Made by a program: the position numbers and the translations under genes | Part shown: piece by piece, positions 3,798 to 29,673 of the stretch | Numbering within the stretch: the stretch's first letter is position 1 | Layout: every line of letters begins with the position of its first letter | The notes under the pieces: generated by a model | The model's database searches: none | What the model was told of the DNA's origin: nothing | What the model saw: only the letters and a program-made list of their open reading frames with translations | NCBI RefSeq assembly: GCF_004087835.1 | Contig: NZ_CP035119.1 | Location: 682,001 to 746,000, forward strand | Direction of reading: 5' to 3' | Length of the DNA: 64,000 nucleotides | DNA from: Halorussus pelagicus | GTDB taxonomy: Archaea; Halobacteriota; Halobacteria; Halobacteriales; Haladaptataceae

Positions 3798-5057
3798 ATG
3801 AAGACACAGCGTTCAACGAGCGGGGCAGTCGTCGTCCCCGCGGTCGATTCGGCGAGTTCCACTTGCGTCCTGCGCTCGCTCGGTCGGCGCGGCATCCGGA
3901 CCATCGCGGCGTCGTTCCGCGACACGCCCCCCGCGTTTCGTTCGAAGTATTGCGACGACGCGGTCCGCGTCCCGTCGTACCGCGACGACGTGGTCGCGTA
4001 CAAAGACGCGCTCCTCTCGCTCGCCCGTCGGCCGTCGGTACGCACCGTCTTCCCGCTCCAAGAGATGGATACGTACGTCCTCTCGCGGTATCGGTCGGAG
4101 TTCGCCGAGCATCTCGATCCGGTCTGGCCGACGATGGAGACGCTCGCGGACGCTCAGGACCGACTTCGACTGGTCGAGGCGGCGGAGTCGGCCGGGGTCG
4201 CGGTGCCCGAGACGCGACTCCTTGACGAAGTCGAGGACTGGACCCGAAAGCAGATAGTCAAGGCGCGCTACACGGTGTTGACCGACGCCTACGTCGATTC
4301 GTTCTCGCCCGACCAGTATCGGTTCGGCGGTTCGACGCGGTACCTCCGGTCCGGCGTCGAACCCGACCGCGAGGCGATTCGGGCGGAGAGCGGTCACGTC
4401 CCCATCGTCCAAGAGTACGTGCCGGGCGACGAGTACGCTCTGTGGGCACTCTACGACGAGGGTGACCCGGTGGCGACCTGCGGCAAACGCCAGCGCCGAG
4501 CGTACTCGTGGGCTGGCGGGACGAGCATCTGCCGTGAGACCACCGACGACCCGCAACTGGAGGCGGCCGGGCGCGCCCTCCTCGACGAACTCGACTGGCA
4601 CGGTCCCGCGTCGGTTCAGTTTGTCAAGGACGAGGAGACGGGGGAGTTCACGCTCCTCGAAATCAACCCCCGCTTCTGGGTCTCGCTGTCGTGTCCGGTC
4701 AGGGCCGGTCTCGACTTCCCGCAGTATTTCTGGCAGTTGGCGAGCGGCGAGTCGGTCGCCCCGAGCGACGACTACGAGACGGGGGTCGCCACCCACCTCC
4801 TGCGCGGCGAAGCCGTCCACCTCCACAGCGTCCTCACCGAGGAGTTCCCCTACGAGAACCCGCCGTCGTTCTCGGCGAAGGTTCGGGAGGTCACCGAGTC
4901 GGTCGCGCGCCAACCCAACTTCGACTACCTGACGCTGGACGACCCCGGACCGTTCGTTCGGGACGCGCTCAATCAAGTCTCGTCGGTTGGCGGGTCGCTT
5001 CGGGGCGTCCTTTCGCCGGACTCGGACGGTGACGCGACGACCGCTCCGGACGTGTAG
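3798..5057 (+). CDS. ATP-grasp family ligase (carboxylate-amine ligase-like)
   Basis: The 419-residue soluble protein has an N-terminal PreATP-grasp Rossmann-like region (VVVPAVDSASSTCVLRSLGR), a central ATP-grasp domain with lysine-bearing KQIVKARY, a VQEYVPGDEY strand-turn (about 204-213), and the metal/ATP-binding motif LLEINPRFW at about 286-294. The family couples ATP hydrolysis to ligation of a carboxylate to an amine or thiol through an acyl-phosphate. The closest groups by motif are the carbamoyl-phosphate synthase-like ATP-grasp proteins found in polysaccharide and peptide-tailoring clusters. No biosynthetic partner is adjacent, so the substrate is unknown. It stands alone, followed by a repeat-rich gap. 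Confidence 0.8.
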   Translation: MKTQRSTSGAVVVPAVDSASSTCVLRSLGRRGIRTIAASFRDTPPAFRSKYCDDAVRVPSYRDDVVAYKDALLSLARRPSVRTVFPLQEMDTYVLSRYRSEFAEHLDPVWPTMETLADAQDRLRLVEAAESAGVAVPETRLLDEVEDWTRKQIVKARYTVLTDAYVDSFSPDQYRFGGSTRYLRSGVEPDREAIRAESGHVPIVQEYVPGDEYALWALYDEGDPVATCGKRQRRAYSWAGGTSICRETTDDPQLEAAGRALLDELDWHGPASVQFVKDEETGEFTLLEINPRFWVSLSCPVRAGLDFPQYFWQLASGESVAPSDDYETGVATHLLRGEAVHLHSVLTEEFPYENPPSFSAKVREVTESVARQPNFDYLTLDDPGPFVRDALNQVSSVGGSLRGVLSPDSDGDATTAPDV

Positions 5058-5076
5058 TCGGTTGGAGTGGTGGCGG

Positions 5077-5126
5077 TTCATCCACGAGTACGCACCAGCG
5101 ATTCATCCACGAGTACGCACCAGCAG
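5077..5126. repeat. Two-copy 25-base tandem repeat
   Basis: The 23-base core beginning ttcatccacgagtacgcacc occurs at 5077-5099 and again at 5102-5124, identical in both copies, with two variable bases after each. It starts 19 bases after the stop codon of the ATP-grasp gene. Confidence 0.9.
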
Positions 5127-5237
5127 TTCACCGCGAGCGAACGACCGAAGGGAGTGAGCGAGCGGGCCAAGCGACGACGAGAGCGAACGAAGTGAGCGGC
5201 GGGAGGAGCGCAGTGCTTTTTGATCGAGCTTTTTATC

Positions 5238-5266
5238 GAGCGCAGTCGCCGACGGCGACTGCGCTC
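5238..5266. repeat. Perfect 13-base inverted repeat (hairpin, possible transcript end)
   Basis: The arms gagcgcagtcgcc (5238-5250) and ggcgactgcgctc (5254-5266) are perfect reverse complements around a 3-base loop. T-rich sequence before the left arm and A-rich sequence after the right arm could extend the stem. It lies between the convergent ATP-grasp gene and tRNA-Leu, where a transcript end is expected, but no U-tract follows on either strand. Confidence 0.75.
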
Positions 5267-5282
5267 GCAATAAAAAGGTCGT

Positions 5283-5305
5283 ATGCGAGAGATGGGATTC
5301 GAACC
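5283..5305 (-). repeat. Partial copy of tRNA-Leu 3' end (att-like remnant)
   Basis: On the plus strand this region reads tgcgagagatgggattcgaa, matching the tRNA-Leu 3' end at 5444 onward at all but one base through the T-loop. The rest of a tRNA fold is absent. Such fragments are what tRNA-targeted integrases leave behind, but no integrase is visible nearby. Confidence 0.6.
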
Positions 5306-5443
5306 ACGCCCAGACGTTCCTGCTCGGCCTACGGCCTGCGCGGGCGTGCGACTGGTCTACTTCGAATCCATCCGGTTCAATTTTCACGACGCGCTGGGCT
5401 TGCGAGCGCACGGGGCGCTCGCGGCGTCGCGCGTCGAGAGAAA

Positions 5444-5526
5444 TGCGAGGGATGGGATTCGAACCCATGGACTCCTTCGAGAGCGGGTCTTAAGCCCGCC
5501 GCCTTTGGCCGCTCGGCAACCCTCGC
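5444..5526 (-). tRNA. tRNA-Leu (anticodon UAA)
   Basis: The minus strand gives an 83-base class II tRNA. The acceptor stem pairs GCGAGGG with CCCTCGC and is followed by discriminator A. The anticodon stem GCGGG/CCCGC encloses loop CTTAAGA, giving anticodon TAA. A long variable arm and the T-arm ATGGG-TTCGAAT-CCCAT follow. CCA is not encoded, and no intron is present. Confidence 0.95.
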
Positions 5527-5649
5527 TCAGGAGCAGATTGACGACTCTCCCCGAAGTGGGTTTCGGTCTGTGCGGGCCGAAAGGAAACGGACAGAGCCGT
5601 GACCGTCGTTCGGCGTCCGAGCGGGCGTTCGAAACGTCGATAGCGTCGG

Positions 5650-6198
5650 TTAGTCGTGAATTTCGACGCGTTCGAGCGTCACGTCCTCGTTGGGGCTGTC
5701 GTTGCGGTCGGTCGAAACGTCGCCGATCTCCTCGACAACGTCCATTCCGTCGATTACCTCGCCGAAGACCGCGTGGCGGTCGTCCAGATGCGGCTGGGCT
5801 TCGAGAGTGATGAAGAACTGCGAGCCGTTGGTGTCGGGACCGCTGTTGGCCATCGAGAGGACGCCCGCGCCGTCGTGGCGGAGTTCGTCGTGGAACTCGT
5901 CTTCGAACTCGTAGCCGGGACCGCCGCGGCCGGTGCCGGTCGGGTCGCCGCCCTGAATCATGAAGTCCTCGATGATTCGGTGGAAGGGCACGTCGTTGTA
6001 GAGCGCGTCGCCGCGGACTTCGCCGGACTCGGGGTCCTTCCACGTCGGCGTCTCCGGCGCGGGGTCGTCGTTCGCGGCGGGGTCGTGTGTCGCCAGATTG
6101 ACGAAGTTCTCGACGGTCTTCGGCGCGCGCTCGTCGAACAGTCGGACTTCGATGTCGCCGTGCGTCGTGTACAGCGTCGCGGTTAGGTCGTCTGCCAT
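5650..6198 (-). CDS. ppiA: Cyclophilin-type peptidyl-prolyl cis-trans isomerase
   Basis: The 182-residue cytosolic protein is a single cyclophilin domain that isomerises proline peptide bonds during folding. The active-site region is visible as FHRIIEDFMIQGGDPTGTG (catalytic Arg in FHRII) followed by FFITLEAQPHLDDRHAVFG. An acidic insertion of about 25 residues near 38-60 (DPAANDDPAPETPTWKD) is typical of haloarchaeal versions. The start MADDLTATLYTTHGDIEVRL is the first Met upstream of homology. It lies upstream of tRNA-Leu and downstream of the peptide transporter operon, on the same strand; an 84-base gap to dppF makes it probably a separate unit. Confidence 0.95.
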   Translation of the reverse strand: MADDLTATLYTTHGDIEVRLFDERAPKTVENFVNLATHDPAANDDPAPETPTWKDPESGEVRGDALYNDVPFHRIIEDFMIQGGDPTGTGRGGPGYEFEDEFHDELRHDGAGVLSMANSGPDTNGSQFFITLEAQPHLDDRHAVFGEVIDGMDVVEEIGDVSTDRNDSPNEDVTLERVEIHD

Positions 6199-6282
6199 GC
6201 CTGCGAGAAGGGTCGCTGGACGGATAACGGTGCCGGACGAATCCCGAGACCGGGCGCGAGCGCCGACCGCGCGACGCCCTCG

Positions 6283-7335
6283 TCAGTCGTCGGCGACCTG
6301 TTCGGCCACTTGCTCGTCGGTTTCGAGCGGCGGACTGTCCCAATACTCGTGGGACTCGACCTGCCGGAAGCAGGCCGCCCGGTGGTCTTCATCTTCGACC
6401 TCGTAGTCCTCGGGGGACGACTGCGTGCAGGCCTCGCGGGCGTACGGACAGCGCGTGTGGAATCGACAGCCAGCGGGCGGGTCTCGCGGCGACGGCACGT
6501 CGCCTGCCAGCGTGTCCACCTGCCGCCCCTGCTCGCTGGTGTCGGCTCGCGGGACGCTCTCCAGCAGGGCCTCGGTGTAGGGGTGGCCGGGGTTCTCGAA
6601 TATCTCCTCGACGGGACCGACCTCGACGATTTCGCCCAGATACATCACGGCCACGCGGTCGGAGATGTGCCGAACGACGCTCAGGTCGTGAGCGATGAAC
6701 AGGTAGGTCAGACCGAACTCCTCCTGCAAGTCCTCCAAGAGATTCAGAATCTGGGCCTGCACCGACACGTCCAGCGCCGACACCGGTTCGTCGCAGACGA
6801 TGAAGTCCGGTTCGAGCGCGAGCGCGCGGGCGATGCCGATGCGCTGGCGCTGACCGCCCGAGAACTCGTGGGGATAGCGGTCAACCTGTCCGGCCGAGAG
6901 ACCGACTCGCTCCATCAGGTCCGCAACGTGTTCGCGGCGCTCGGCCTTCGTGCCGATGCCGTGAACGTCGAGGGGTTCGCGGACGATTTCACCCGCGGTC
7001 ATCCGCGGGTCGAGACTGGAGAAGGGGTCCTGAAAGACGACCTGCGCGCGCTTGCGGAACTCGGTGAGGTCGTCCTTCTCGAAGACGCTCTCGCCGTCGA
7101 AGTACATTTTTCCGTCGGTCGGTTCCCGGAGTTTGAGCAGGGTCTCGCCCGTCGTGGACTTGCCACATCCCGACTCACCGACCAGACCCAGCGTCTCGCC
7201 TTCCCGCACCTCGAAGCTCACGCCATCGACGGCCTGCACGCTCTCTGGTTCTCGACCGAGCAGTCGGTCGGTGAGGTTGTCCCCTTCGAAGTAGTATTTG
7301 TGCAGGTCCTCGACGCGAACGAGCGGGTCAGTCAT
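6283..7335 (-). CDS. Peptide/nickel-type ABC transporter ATP-binding protein (DppF/OppF-like)
   Basis: This 350-residue ATPase drives import through the permease pair encoded upstream. Walker A is GESGCGKST, the ABC signature is [15 protein letters not shown] and Walker B ends in VCDEP. The C-terminal oligopeptide/dipeptide domain carries the family [13 protein letters not shown] motif. It overlaps the preceding ATPase gene by 8 bases and is the last gene of the five-gene operon. The acidic tail [10 protein letters not shown] is haloarchaeal in character. Confidence 0.93.
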
Positions 7336-25896: not shown

Positions 25897-25932
25897 CGGT
25901 GATGTGCAGATCAACGCTCGTGAGACTGGTGA

Positions 25933-25942
25933 TTTATTTAAA
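25933..25942. promoter_or_regulatory. Putative TATA element for the CARF-like regulator
   Basis: The self-complementary run tttatttaaa lies 22-31 bases before the ATG at 25964, fitting a leaderless transcript. Confidence 0.5.
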
Positions 25943-25963
25943 CACCGGCCCCACGTACCGCGT

Positions 25964-26875
25964 ATGCAGACCCACATTGTCCCGGTCGGGTTCGACTACG
26001 ACCGGCTCATCGCGCCGCTCGTGCGCGACCAGTTGGACGTTGACCGCGTCATCCTGTTGGAAGGTGCGGTCGGGAGCGAAGCCAACGTCGAATACTCCCA
26101 GAACCTCTCGAAAAAACTCGAACAGGACTTCCGGAATCTCTTGGGCGCGACCACCGAACGCGTCGTCGTCGCGGACGTGTACGACTACGACGCCGCCTTC
26201 GAGCAGGCCTACGACCTCATCAACGCGGAACTGGACGAGGGCCGAGAGGTCTGGGTCAACATCTCCGCGATGCCCCGGACGGTCAGTTTCGCCTTCGCCA
26301 CGGCGGCCCACTCCGTGATGGTCGAGCGCGAGGAGGACCGCGAGAAGATTCACACCTACTACACCGCCCCGGAGAAGTACCTCGAAACCGAACTCGCCGA
26401 GGAGCTTCGCCGCCAGACGGACCTGCTCGAAGACCTCTCGGCGGACGACGCGGACCCCGGCGACGAAGCCGAGCGCATCGAGGAACGCCTCAAGAGCGCC
26501 CGCGACCTGCTCTCGGAGTTCGACGAGCGCGGGACCACCATCGGCGCGAAGGAGATAAACGACGGCCACATCGCGGAACTCCCGGTCGCGCTCTTCTCGA
26601 ACGTCAAGCCCTTCGAGGAGGTCATCCTGTTCAAACTCGGCGAGGAGGGCGAGTTCGAGTCGGTCTCGGAACTCGCCGAAGCCCTCGCGCGCGAACTGAA
26701 CGAGGAGTACACCGACAGCTTTCGGTCGAAGGTCATCTACAACGTCGATAGGTTGGGTCCCGGCGGCAAGGGGTACATCGAGCAGGAGGAACGCGGGAAG
26801 TCCTACCGGACGAAGCTGTCCAGAATTGGGGAGTTGTGGGTCCGAGCGCACGCGAATGGCGAGGCCGGAACGTAG
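25964..26875 (+). CDS. CARF-like / winged-helix regulator (DUF6293, HFX_2341 family)
   Basis: The 303-residue protein has two domains. Residues 1-140 form a Rossmann-like domain (MQTHIVPVGFDYDRLIAPLV, VILLEGAV at 29-36) whose loop NISAMPRTVSFAFATA (99-114) occupies the position where CARF domains contact cyclic oligoadenylate. Residues about 195-300 form a winged helix (VSELAEALARELNEEYTDSF). This matches the haloarchaeal HFX_2341/DUF6293 family, related to Csa3-type regulators. A charged helical linker (145-190) joins the halves. No CRISPR array or cas gene is in the window. The ATG at 25964 fits the TATA position. Confidence 0.85.
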   Translation: MQTHIVPVGFDYDRLIAPLVRDQLDVDRVILLEGAVGSEANVEYSQNLSKKLEQDFRNLLGATTERVVVADVYDYDAAFEQAYDLINAELDEGREVWVNISAMPRTVSFAFATAAHSVMVEREEDREKIHTYYTAPEKYLETELAEELRRQTDLLEDLSADDADPGDEAERIEERLKSARDLLSEFDERGTTIGAKEINDGHIAELPVALFSNVKPFEEVILFKLGEEGEFESVSELAEALARELNEEYTDSFRSKVIYNVDRLGPGGKGYIEQEERGKSYRTKLSRIGELWVRAHANGEAGT

Positions 26876-27078: not shown

Positions 27079-27789
27079 TCAGTTCACACTCACTTCCAAC
27101 TTCTTCACGCGCGTCGCCAGCGCGAGGAACGTCGCCGCGAGGGTAATCACGACTGCACCGGCGGCCGCGATTTCGTGGGTCGGCGACGGGTGGGAGAACC
27201 CGTTCGCCAGCGCCTCTTGGCCGGGAAGCGTGGTGTGGTGGGGCGTTCCGACGACGGGGATGAAGTAGTCCACCACGTCGTTGAAGCCGTACCAGACCAC
27301 GGCGACGAACACCGCGCCGACCGGGAAGTCGCTGTAGCGGTGAATCAGGAACGCCTCGGCGACCATGCCGAGGTGGCTCCAGAATAGGAAGTTGTACATC
27401 AACACCGAGTTGTACGAAAAGCCCTCCATGAACGCCAGCAGGGTGAACGGCGTCCAGAGACCGAGTTTGAGACAGCCGAAGAACGCCAGCGCGTTGACCA
27501 CCTCGGAGTTGCGGCCGAGTTTCCAGAGCGCAAGGCTGGCCGCGATGAAGAACGTCGCCATCGGGCTATCGGGGACGAACGGCCACATCACGGGGGGTTC
27601 GACGGCGAACTGCAACGTTATCAGCGGGTCCGAGAGCGGGAGCGGGTGGAACCCGTAGTACCAGAAGCCGAACGCGGTCCCGGCGAGGTTGACCGCGACG
27701 ATGAGCCACGCGTACCGGAGCGCGAAATCCTCCAGCGACTCCGGCAGGGGAGCGAGATAGCGCGGCAGGTCGGCCCGGTCGGGGAGCAT
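27079..27789 (-). CDS. DUF1405 family membrane protein
   Basis: The 236-residue integral membrane protein has about six to seven helices (starting YAWLIVAVNLAGTAFGFWYY) and the DUF1405 signatures FWYYGFHPLPL and FFGCLKLGLWTPFTL. The family occurs in archaea and Bacillus and its function is unknown. I prefer the Met at MLPDRADLP (27789) to one nine codons upstream. The HPLPLSDP/PFVPDSP loops are highly conserved and probably functional. It is downstream of the FNT-UspA fusion on the same strand, 60 bases away. Confidence 0.88.
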   Translation of the reverse strand: MLPDRADLPRYLAPLPESLEDFALRYAWLIVAVNLAGTAFGFWYYGFHPLPLSDPLITLQFAVEPPVMWPFVPDSPMATFFIAASLALWKLGRNSEVVNALAFFGCLKLGLWTPFTLLAFMEGFSYNSVLMYNFLFWSHLGMVAEAFLIHRYSDFPVGAVFVAVVWYGFNDVVDYFIPVVGTPHHTTLPGQEALANGFSHPSPTHEIAAAGAVVITLAATFLALATRVKKLEVSVN

Positions 27790-27849
27790 ACCCGAGTCCT
27801 CTCGCGTCCGGCGCAAAGCTTTGGCGGTCTCGCGCCGGAGTCGCCGACG

Positions 27850-29673
27850 TTACCGACGGCCGAGGAGTCGCTGGCGAATGCTCCGGTCGGTCGCGCGCTC
27901 GGCCAGCACCATCGAGCTATCGGTCTCGTTGACGATGTCGAAGTGCAGCGAGTCGGTGACGAGGCGAGAGAGCAGTCCCTGCTCGGTCGCGCCGACCAGC
28001 ACGAGTGAGTGGTCGGCGGCCCGCGTGGCGATTGCGCTCTCTACGTCGCCGGAGTCGTCAACGACGAACGTCGCCTCCGCTAAGTCGTGGTCGGCGGCCC
28101 AGTCGGCGAGGAACTGCTCGCCCGCCTCGCGCTCGTCGGAGTCGTTGACGACTCGTAGGAGCGCGATGTCCGACCCGGCGGTGGTGCGGAGCGCCCGCGC
28201 GACTTCGGCGTTCAGGTCGGCGTGAGCGTTGTCCACGACCGGCAGGAGAATCCGCGATGCGTCCAGTCCGCGGTCCTTGAACACGAGGAAATCGGCCGGA
28301 AGTGTACTCGTGAGTTCGCCCAGCGCGCGCTCCGCGCGCCCGGCCGACCAGAGTCGGTCGTCGCCCCAACCCATCACCACGAGGTCGGCGTGCTTGCGCT
28401 CGGCGATGTCGAATATCTCCTCGAACGAGCGGTGGGAGACGACCGTAGAAGTCTCGTAGTCGATGTCGTAATCCTCCGCAATCGAGCGGATGTCCGCCAT
28501 CAACTCGTTGGACTCGGCGACGATACGGCCGCGCTGGTCAACGCTGTAGCCCCGCGGCGTCCGGTCGGGCGTCTGGACGATGTGAACGACGTGGACGCTG
28601 GCGTCCGATTTCTGGCTCGCCAACGCACACGCTAAGTCCACCAGCGCCGTCTCGGTCCGCGGGTTCGAAATCGGGACGACGATTCGGTAGTCGTCGTCGC
28701 CCTCGCTGGCGTGTCCCTCGGCGGTGTCTATCAGCGGGACGTACGACCGGCCAGCCAGTCCGCCGAACAGCCACTCGCGGACCGAGAGCTGTCGGTTAGC
28801 GCCCTCGAAGCGGGCGGATTCGAGTCGATGCTCGGTCGTCTGGAAGTAGTTGACCACGGTGACGAGGACGACCCCGCCGAGGGTGTTGCCGAGCAACACC
28901 GGGAGGACGAACTCGACGAGACCGACCGCGATTGCGAGGTCGCCGTGGAGGACCAGATACACCATCTCGGTGAACGAGACGACCGAGTGGTAGAGTCCGC
29001 CGAGCGGAATCGAGAGGAAGGCGATGTAGACGACCACGAGGCGAGAGATGGTGTCACGGGCGGCGTACTCCACCCAGACGACGCCAGCGACGATGAGACC
29101 GGCGAACGCGGCCTTCGAGAAGAGGCTCCACCACGCGGTTGCGACGCCTTTCTGTCCGAGGTCCGCGGCCACCGTCGCGGCCTCCGGAGAGATGACGCCG
29201 CCGAACGCGAGCGCGGCCGCGCCGAGCGCGCCGCCGGTGAAGTTCCCGGCTAGCACCACCGTCCAGTTGCGCAACAGCGCCGGAATGCTGGCCAGTCGTT
29301 CGAGCGTCAGCGCCACTGGCGGGAGCGTGTTCTCGGTGTACAACTGGTAGCCGCCGATGATGATGTAGATGAACCCGAGCGGATACAGCAGCGCGCTCAG
29401 TACGGGGTCGCCGCCCGTTGAGGCCGTCAGCGAGACGTACAGCATGAACGTGATCGTGATTGCGAACCCGGCCGCGAGGGCGCTGAAGAATAACTCTCGA
29501 CTGCCCGACGTGATTTCCTCGTCGGCGGCCGCGGTGATTCGCTGGAAGATTTCGTCGGAAGAGAATCGGTCACGAACGACCGACCCGACCGCTGGCGCAC
29601 CGCTTCTGGAGCGTTCGACCGCCTCTCGAACCGACTCCTCCGGGTCGAGTGAATCGGCGTCGGGGTCAGACAT
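27850..29673 (-). CDS. Formate/nitrite-type channel fused to two UspA domains
   Basis: The 607-residue protein combines an FNT-family channel (about 50-300, six helices, with GNFTGGALGAAALAF and LGNTLGGVVLVTVVNYF as the FNT signature half-helices) and two cytoplasmic universal-stress-protein domains (about 330-465 and 467-595). The first UspA domain has a G-x2-G-x9-G-like segment in VMGWGDDRLWSAGRAERALG; the second has LVGATEQGLLSRLVTDSLHF. FNT proteins pass formate, nitrite, hydrosulfide or lactate; UspA domains often bind ATP. The fusion suggests nucleotide-controlled transport. The substrate is not determinable. The N-terminal 45 residues are acidic. Confidence 0.88.
   Translation of the reverse strand: MSDPDADSLDPEESVREAVERSRSGAPAVGSVVRDRFSSDEIFQRITAAADEEITSGSRELFFSALAAGFAITITFMLYVSLTASTGGDPVLSALLYPLGFIYIIIGGYQLYTENTLPPVALTLERLASIPALLRNWTVVLAGNFTGGALGAAALAFGGVISPEAATVAADLGQKGVATAWWSLFSKAAFAGLIVAGVVWVEYAARDTISRLVVVYIAFLSIPLGGLYHSVVSFTEMVYLVLHGDLAIAVGLVEFVLPVLLGNTLGGVVLVTVVNYFQTTEHRLESARFEGANRQLSVREWLFGGLAGRSYVPLIDTAEGHASEGDDDYRIVVPISNPRTETALVDLACALASQKSDASVHVVHIVQTPDRTPRGYSVDQRGRIVAESNELMADIRSIAEDYDIDYETSTVVSHRSFEEIFDIAERKHADLVVMGWGDDRLWSAGRAERALGELTSTLPADFLVFKDRGLDASRILLPVVDNAHADLNAEVARALRTTAGSDIALLRVVNDSDEREAGEQFLADWAADHDLAEATFVVDDSGDVESAIATRAADHSLVLVGATEQGLLSRLVTDSLHFDIVNETDSSMVLAERATDRSIRQRLLGRR

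Follow-up and report, generated by a model that had tools for sequence, protein, structure and literature searches.

Why would a membrane channel of the formate/nitrite transporter (FNT) family carry two domains of the universal stress protein (USP) type at its C-terminus, and what could they do there? The question is raised by a gene of Halorussus pelagicus lying in a window of 64,000 nucleotides (contig NZ_CP035119.1, positions 682,001 to 746,000), which is the whole stretch of DNA analysed here. The architecture itself is already known, because FNT-UspA fusions have been reported before (Anderson et al., 2011; PMC3102087): several haloarchaeal FNT transporters, namely Hmuk_1674, HQ1451A, NP6264A, Hlac_2299, and Htur_2705, were found fused or adjacent to UspA domains, most haloarchaeal APC amino-acid transporters were likewise found to have UspA domains, and regulation was suggested. 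The same authors proposed formate as the substrate, based on nearby folate enzymes in two species. Besides this paper, no description of an FNT-UspA fusion appeared among the best-ranked literature matches, judged by titles and the beginnings of abstracts. To the relevant passage of the 2011 report the present analysis adds the tandem nature of the domains, counts of their nucleotide-binding motif, a YfdC-like pore, a cotransporter-like fold, the distribution of the fusion, and its single clade.

The fusion gene is one uninterrupted frame of 607 codons starting from ATG, and its parts are listed in Table 1. The initial annotation had placed it at exactly these coordinates. Two separate genes or a frameshift are ruled out by a single open frame both here and in 61 distinct relatives, which are 57–88% identical and share the same architecture; the nearest named ones are Halorussus species with 87–88% identity. 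Pfam matches the channel over the full Form_Nir_trans profile (positions 1–240 of 240) and assigns Usp to residues 330–438 of the first USP-like domain (E 8.2e-13). This is the sole Usp stretch of the 607-residue protein: the second domain is left unmatched by PF00582, and a pair alignment of the two domains within the query is weak. The second domain is backed by a fold match of the predicted model, by a profile of the module that covers both domains of the tandem USP TTHA0350, and by three related permeases, each with two passing Usp stretches. The gene had been described as an FNT-type channel with two C-terminal UspA domains, and this is borne out, by Pfam for the channel and first domain and by fold, profile, and related permeases for the second. 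The conserved N-terminal segment, which we infer to be cytoplasmic, has low pLDDT in the monomer model.

Table 1. Parts of the fusion gene, with positions counted in the window.
Feature	Position	Strand	Evidence
FNT channel + tandem USP-like module, fusion gene, 607 aa	27850..29673	(-)	one open frame + Pfam
N-terminal segment, residues 12-46 (SRSGAP...RDRF), conserved	29536..29640	(-)	near-invariant or invariant columns from residue 16, 62 rows
FNT channel domain, residues 41-277	28843..29553	(-)	PF01226 E 1.3e-48; FocA 3klz Z 26.8
Pore histidine His229 (= FocA His209)	28987..28989	(-)	62/62 sequences
Linker, residues 278-328, GRSYVP motif at 308-313	28690..28842	(-)	near-invariant, 62 rows
First USP-like domain, residues 329-467, canonical nucleotide motif lost	28273..28689	(-)	PF00582, fold, motif counts
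Second USP-like domain, residues about 472-596, canonical nucleotide motif lost	27886..28260	(-)	fold, motif counts, related permeases

Is such a fusion a rarity? It had been called unusual, which holds against FNTs in general but not within haloarchaea, where it has been in print since 2011 and where a survey found it to be widespread: of 117 genomes sampled from the order, 62 have a full-length fusion (64 places), and these represent 10 of the 17 family codes encountered. When 294 genomes were sampled across the phylum, the 34 full-length matches all fell within the order. Some match at E up to 1e-10 occurs in 50 genomes outside the order, and among the matches listed these cover the channel part only or the module part only, including two close module-less channels (62% in G319 and 52% in G310). 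FNT channels as such are common in the order (PF01226 in 241 of 293 genomes), and the source genome encodes a second one of 274 residues that has no module. PF01226 and PF00582 are both found in all 62 aligned fusions, although conservation drops sharply from channel to module, with 89 invariant columns before residue 329 vs. 14 from there on. These 62-row counts leave out locus L022 of the uncultured archaeon A07HR67, where the fusion gene (about 4991–6880) runs over two frames through a frameshift or an assembly error; its two pieces remain as two rows in the FNT tree described below.

The channel part has the hallmarks of its family. The conserved pore histidine that was expected is present as the S-loop residue His229, and the Leu-x-Thr of the omega loop as Leu111 and Thr113; these three residues together with Tyr97, Phe101, Gly192, Val195, and Asn263 are each found in 62/62 sequences, followed closely by Phe255 (61/62), Val232 (59/62), and Ile222 (59/62, the rest Val). 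The predicted model shows the six-helix FNT fold and matches the structures of FocA, HSC, NirC-type channels, PfFNT, and LciA with Z 24–27. LciA is the nearest solved sequence, and we dropped the idea of borrowing a function from it, several FNT subfamily structures being tied within about 1–2 Z. Pore positions were mapped by hand onto the published FocA numbering, which gives a central constriction YIHV with Gly at 172 and Phe at 254. The YfdC subfamilies, to which most archaeal FNTs belong and which have no assigned function, are described as having aromatic residues at 79 and 254, an aliphatic one at 202, Val at 212, and Gly at 172 (PMC5525234). By this hand mapping the whole set is found here as Phe101, Phe255, Ile222, Val232, and Gly192. 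The slit disagrees: it is typically FLTI (alpha) or FLTM (beta) in YfdC channels, with Ile or Met at position 175, whereas FLTV is typical of NirC-alpha (PMC5525234). Neither Ile nor Met is seen at this site in the fusions, which have Val195 in 62/62 and thus the FLTV state of NirC-alpha, and for this reason we call the pore YfdC-like rather than YfdC; position 175 is known as a variable hydrophobic one within the family (PMC5525234). Equivalents of Phe202 and Asn172, the formate residues of FocA/FdhC, are absent, being replaced by Ile222 (59/62) and Gly192 (62/62). The term "formate/nitrite" channel consequently stands as a family name only and not as a substrate assignment; because most pore positions are of the YfdC type, neither formate nor nitrite should be assumed from it.

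The fold of the module was modelled separately (306 residues, mean pLDDT 76, pTM 0.78). In this model the two USP-like domains are one unit, packed as an internal pseudo-dimer. The best match is 3g40, the cytoplasmic domain of a prokaryotic cation-chloride cotransporter (Z 18.8, rmsd 3.0 A, 225 aligned residues), with the C-terminal domain (CTD) of C. elegans KCC-1 at the same Z of 18.8, the KCC1 CTD 7aip at Z 17.2, and human or mouse KCC/NKCC/NCC cytoplasmic domains at Z 14–18. Tandem USPs match over both domains and come within about 2 Z of the best cotransporter matches (Rv2623, Z 17.5; TTHA0350, Z 16.9), and a Foldseek search was also run on the module. The second domain taken separately (residues 170–291 of the module model) matches 2z09 and 2z08 with Z 13.5 and 13.4, and TeaD with Z 13.4. 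In a full-length model (pLDDT 70, pTM 0.48) the N-terminal part again matches FocA (Z 26.8) and the C-terminal part 3g40 (Z 18.6); with a pTM of 0.48, this model does not fix how channel and module are placed relative to each other. At the profile level, Pfam CCC_C_2nd_pro passes an E cut-off of 0.01 in two of the 62 members, with 0.0092 as the best value, and the query is not one of them. A fold shared with cotransporter domains does not by itself demonstrate function.

What the module might sense depends on its nucleotide-binding site. The initial annotation had suggested that the UspA domains bind ATP or AMP and that transport is gated by energy status. On the alignment, neither domain of any of the 62 sequences has the complete G-x2-G-x9-G(S/T) motif, and an alignment-free pattern search, duplicates included, recovered it in 0 of 68 fused frames, 0 of 6 stand-alone frames, and 1 of 16 permease modules. 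Loss of nucleotide-binding residues from both domains had been named beforehand as refuting the suggestion, and for its triphosphate-binding part these counts show such a loss; gating by ATP or energy status is not supported. Absence of the motif alone is not rare: the source genome has 23 further Usp stretches, some of them truncated, and the motif is present in 8. In the first domain, whose motif positions come from an ungapped placing against MJ0577, the first Gly is kept in 52/62 sequences and followed by Asp or Glu (53/62), while Glu448 (47/62) and Arg449 (55/62) occupy the positions of the third Gly and the Ser/Thr. In the second domain the first Gly is kept throughout (62/62), Glu564 takes the second Gly site (51/62), and the remaining sites hold Asp574 (33/62; Gly in 15) and Ser/Thr575 (57/62). 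The aliphatic-His stretch of beta2 reads Val363 (60/62) and His364 (59/62) in the first domain; its counterpart in the second is Leu506 (54/62) followed by His (41/62) or Arg (14/62) at position 507. The Asp between beta1 and alpha1, fully conserved among ATP-binding USPs (PMC8214093), corresponds, by hand placing, to Asn337 in the first domain (60/62) and to position 481 in the second, which is Gly in 34/62 and Asp in 25/62.

Such a loss could mean that the module has no ligand whatever. Nucleotide binding of another kind may also be considered, the first Gly and the aliphatic-His stretch being largely kept, and both are general USP features. By resemblance of residues, what is left looks closer to the AMP/c-di-AMP-binding domain of KdpD than to ATP-binding USPs: the USP domain of S. 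aureus KdpD binds c-di-AMP and still has its first Gly and beta2 stretch in place, with most other motif residues gone (PMC8214093). A diadenylate cyclase domain (PF02457) is encoded in the source genome and in 11 of 14 control genomes, and this domain is common among archaea and bacteria. That the tandem module is a sensor of c-di-AMP or AMP, a plug-in common to anion channels and amino-acid permeases that is either kept or lost, is a long shot. If it were true, the gate of an anion channel would answer to a messenger known in other organisms for its control of K+ and osmolyte transport, and anion permeability would be tied to the osmotic state in these salt-in archaea.

A gate of the standard kind, in which the UspA domains bind ATP or AMP in the usual manner and couple transport to energy status, appears improbable to us. 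ATP binding is frequent among USP domains, the first Gly of both domains and Val363-His364 of the first are kept as counted above, and one of the fold matches, KCC1, is an ATP/ADP binder that uses lysines located in beta1 and the beta1/alpha1 loop of the corresponding lobe (PMC8280820). Motif loss does not exclude ATP, since KCC1 binds it through these lysines, and the equivalent loop of the first domain has a conserved Arg339 (59/62). The usual manner of binding is nevertheless opposed by the missing motif in every sequence of each domain, by Glu448, Arg449, and Glu564 at motif positions, and by Asn337 and Gly or Asp481 at the beta1-alpha1 site. The same loss of the motif in both domains would suit a docking or assembly domain that senses no small molecule and serves either to hold the oligomer or to recruit another protein, such as a stand-alone USP. 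The linker and N-terminus, conserved and yet predicted with low confidence, may pack only in the oligomer, and the many other Usp stretches of the genome are possible partners. The kept adenosine-facing positions would be needless for pure docking, though they are general USP features too, and relatives without the module persist, so that the module is not required for channel assembly. We regard docking alone as rather unlikely.

These module-less relatives, along with degraded-looking pieces of the fusion in one genome (see below), might also be read as signs of a passive passenger, joined by accident and of little consequence for the channel, and the much lower number of invariant columns in the module points in the same direction. 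Even so, one frame has been kept across 10 family codes with PF00582 recognizable in 62/62 sequences, and many positions of the module are near-invariant; a passenger of this kind is very improbable.

Where the module came from is suggested by haloarchaeal APC amino-acid permeases, which end in homologous tandem modules. The nearer copies are about 46–56% identical, a wider draw adds remoter ones near 25–31%, and a few modules stand alone; in all three module-bearing permeases checked, PF13520 is followed by two Usp stretches. A tree of 82 modules, made by a quick method, puts all 63 FNT copies on one side of a branch with SH-aLRT 100, among the permease copies; this nesting rests on one long, distant outgroup row. 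In the FNT tree, channels without the module occur within the same clade and the module label needs 4 changes, one of which is due to the broken-frame L022. Among 19 module-less relatives looked at, 8 end in the GRSYVP linker motif or a close form of it. The existence of module-less channels, 8/19 of which keep the linker motif, indicates that the module is an add-on and not a part of the pore. One genome (G043:C1:516128-516667) has adjacent short pieces of the channel and the second USP domain, with stops, and retains a module-less channel; from their sequence the pieces look like a degraded fusion gene. The simplest account would be a single gain and some later losses, in an order that stays tentative near the base.

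Most of the gene neighbourhood was judged by visual inspection, with crude filtering for coding frames. No recurrent operon partner that would name the substrate was found among the neighbours listed; an unsystematic look recognised no folate enzymes near the source locus. The neighbours pdxS and a DUF1405/LhaT-like gene recur mainly in near relatives. The next gene downstream in the window, at 27079–27816 (-), encodes DUF1405 (PF07187), and its match to the lipoprotein acetyltransferase LhaT is sub-threshold (68.5 vs. a cut-off of 255 bits); DUF1405-like ORFs adjoin the fusion in four Halorussus/Halobacterium loci. A transcriptional regulator of the HFX_2341 family lies at 25904–26875 (+) and has a weak match to a Csa3 CARF-like domain. 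In distant haloarchaea, Pfam-confirmed potassium-uptake genes are located near the fusion (TrkH and TrkA in L026, 6816–9741; TrkH in L063, 6019–7500), Trk-like ORFs cluster near it in L012, L019, L070, L071, and L074, and L017 has an MscS gene. A beta carbonic anhydrase adjoins the fusion in a single case (L072, 1493–2209 (-)); LciA, the nearest solved sequence, is an FNT bicarbonate channel. In 6 of 40 loci (L012, L063, L066, L074, L075, and L076) a permease-USP gene adjoins the fusion or lies no more than about 5 kb away, a number not to be read as a rate, four of these (L063, L074, L075, and L076) having been fetched for the known closeness of both genes; of the 24 named loci picked without regard to such a gene, L012 alone shows one in its flanks of 5 kb. 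In L063, L066, L074, L075, and L076 the APC permease and FNT genes stand side by side, each ending in a homologous tandem USP module, and L074 has further module frames besides this pair.

Our preferred reading, which we hold with moderate confidence, is that the gene encodes a YfdC-like FNT channel with a cytoplasmic tandem-USP regulatory module, captured once from a tail of the APC-permease type and acting in the manner of cation-chloride cotransporter (CCC) tails. The module would have been gained once, early in haloarchaeal evolution, with transfer probably running from the tandem-USP tail of a permease to the channel. Since FNT topology puts the termini in the cytoplasm (PMC5572259), the module is expected on the cytoplasmic side. 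The module of each protomer would thus lie under the channel and most likely act like the cytoplasmic domains of SLC12/CCC proteins. By analogy with solved FNTs, a pentamer with five modules would carry ten USP-like domains, and a module that is a pseudo-dimer in itself would fit a five-fold channel without symmetry conflict. Allosteric control is the most likely role of the module: a small ligand or a partner protein would bind to it and alter the cytoplasmic mouth of the pore, and if the ligand was a nucleotide, the residue pattern would favour AMP or a cyclic di-adenosine nucleotide over ATP. In KimA, c-di-AMP bound on the cytosolic domain restrains membrane helices (PMC10284832), which serves as an analogy only for an action of the module on the pore. 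KimA was also tried as a fold relative and dropped, its cytosolic domain being described as PPAT-like (PMC10284832). If the module is indeed regulatory, two transporter folds without relation to each other are controlled in haloarchaea by a single plug-in domain, which resembles the regulatory domain of human chloride cotransporters and offers a small soluble archaeal unit for asking what USP-like tails of transporters sense, those of SLC12 included.

How does the fusion compare with known systems? The FNT-UspA proteins of Anderson et al. (2011) are fusions of this kind, likewise from haloarchaea and likened here by their description only, and the passage on them is silent on a second domain, on a lost motif, on the type of pore, and on any likeness to a cotransporter fold. 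FocA/FdhC share the FNT fold (3klz, Z 26.8), the invariant His, and the omega-loop Thr with the haloarchaeal fusion, which differs from them by Ile, Val, Phe, and Gly in place of Phe202, Ala212, Leu79, and Asn172 and by its USP tail. The APC permeases, such as those at L075 2648–4927 and L076 2262–4544, have the homologous tandem module, and 15 of 16 permease modules are without the full nucleotide motif as in the fusion; their transport part is an amino-acid permease and not an FNT channel. The USP domain of KdpD is likened by residue pattern only, the first Gly and beta2 stretch being kept and the rest of the ATP motif mostly lost in both, and it is a single domain in a sensor kinase, unlike the tandem tail of a transporter. 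The cytoplasmic domains of SLC12/CCC proteins (3g40, KCC, NKCC, and NCC) are only 8–16% identical to the module and sit on an APC-fold cotransporter, whereas the module sits on an FNT channel, a pentamer in solved homologues; yet they have the same two-lobed USP-like fold (Z 14–18.8) and, like the module, are placed C-terminal to a transporter.
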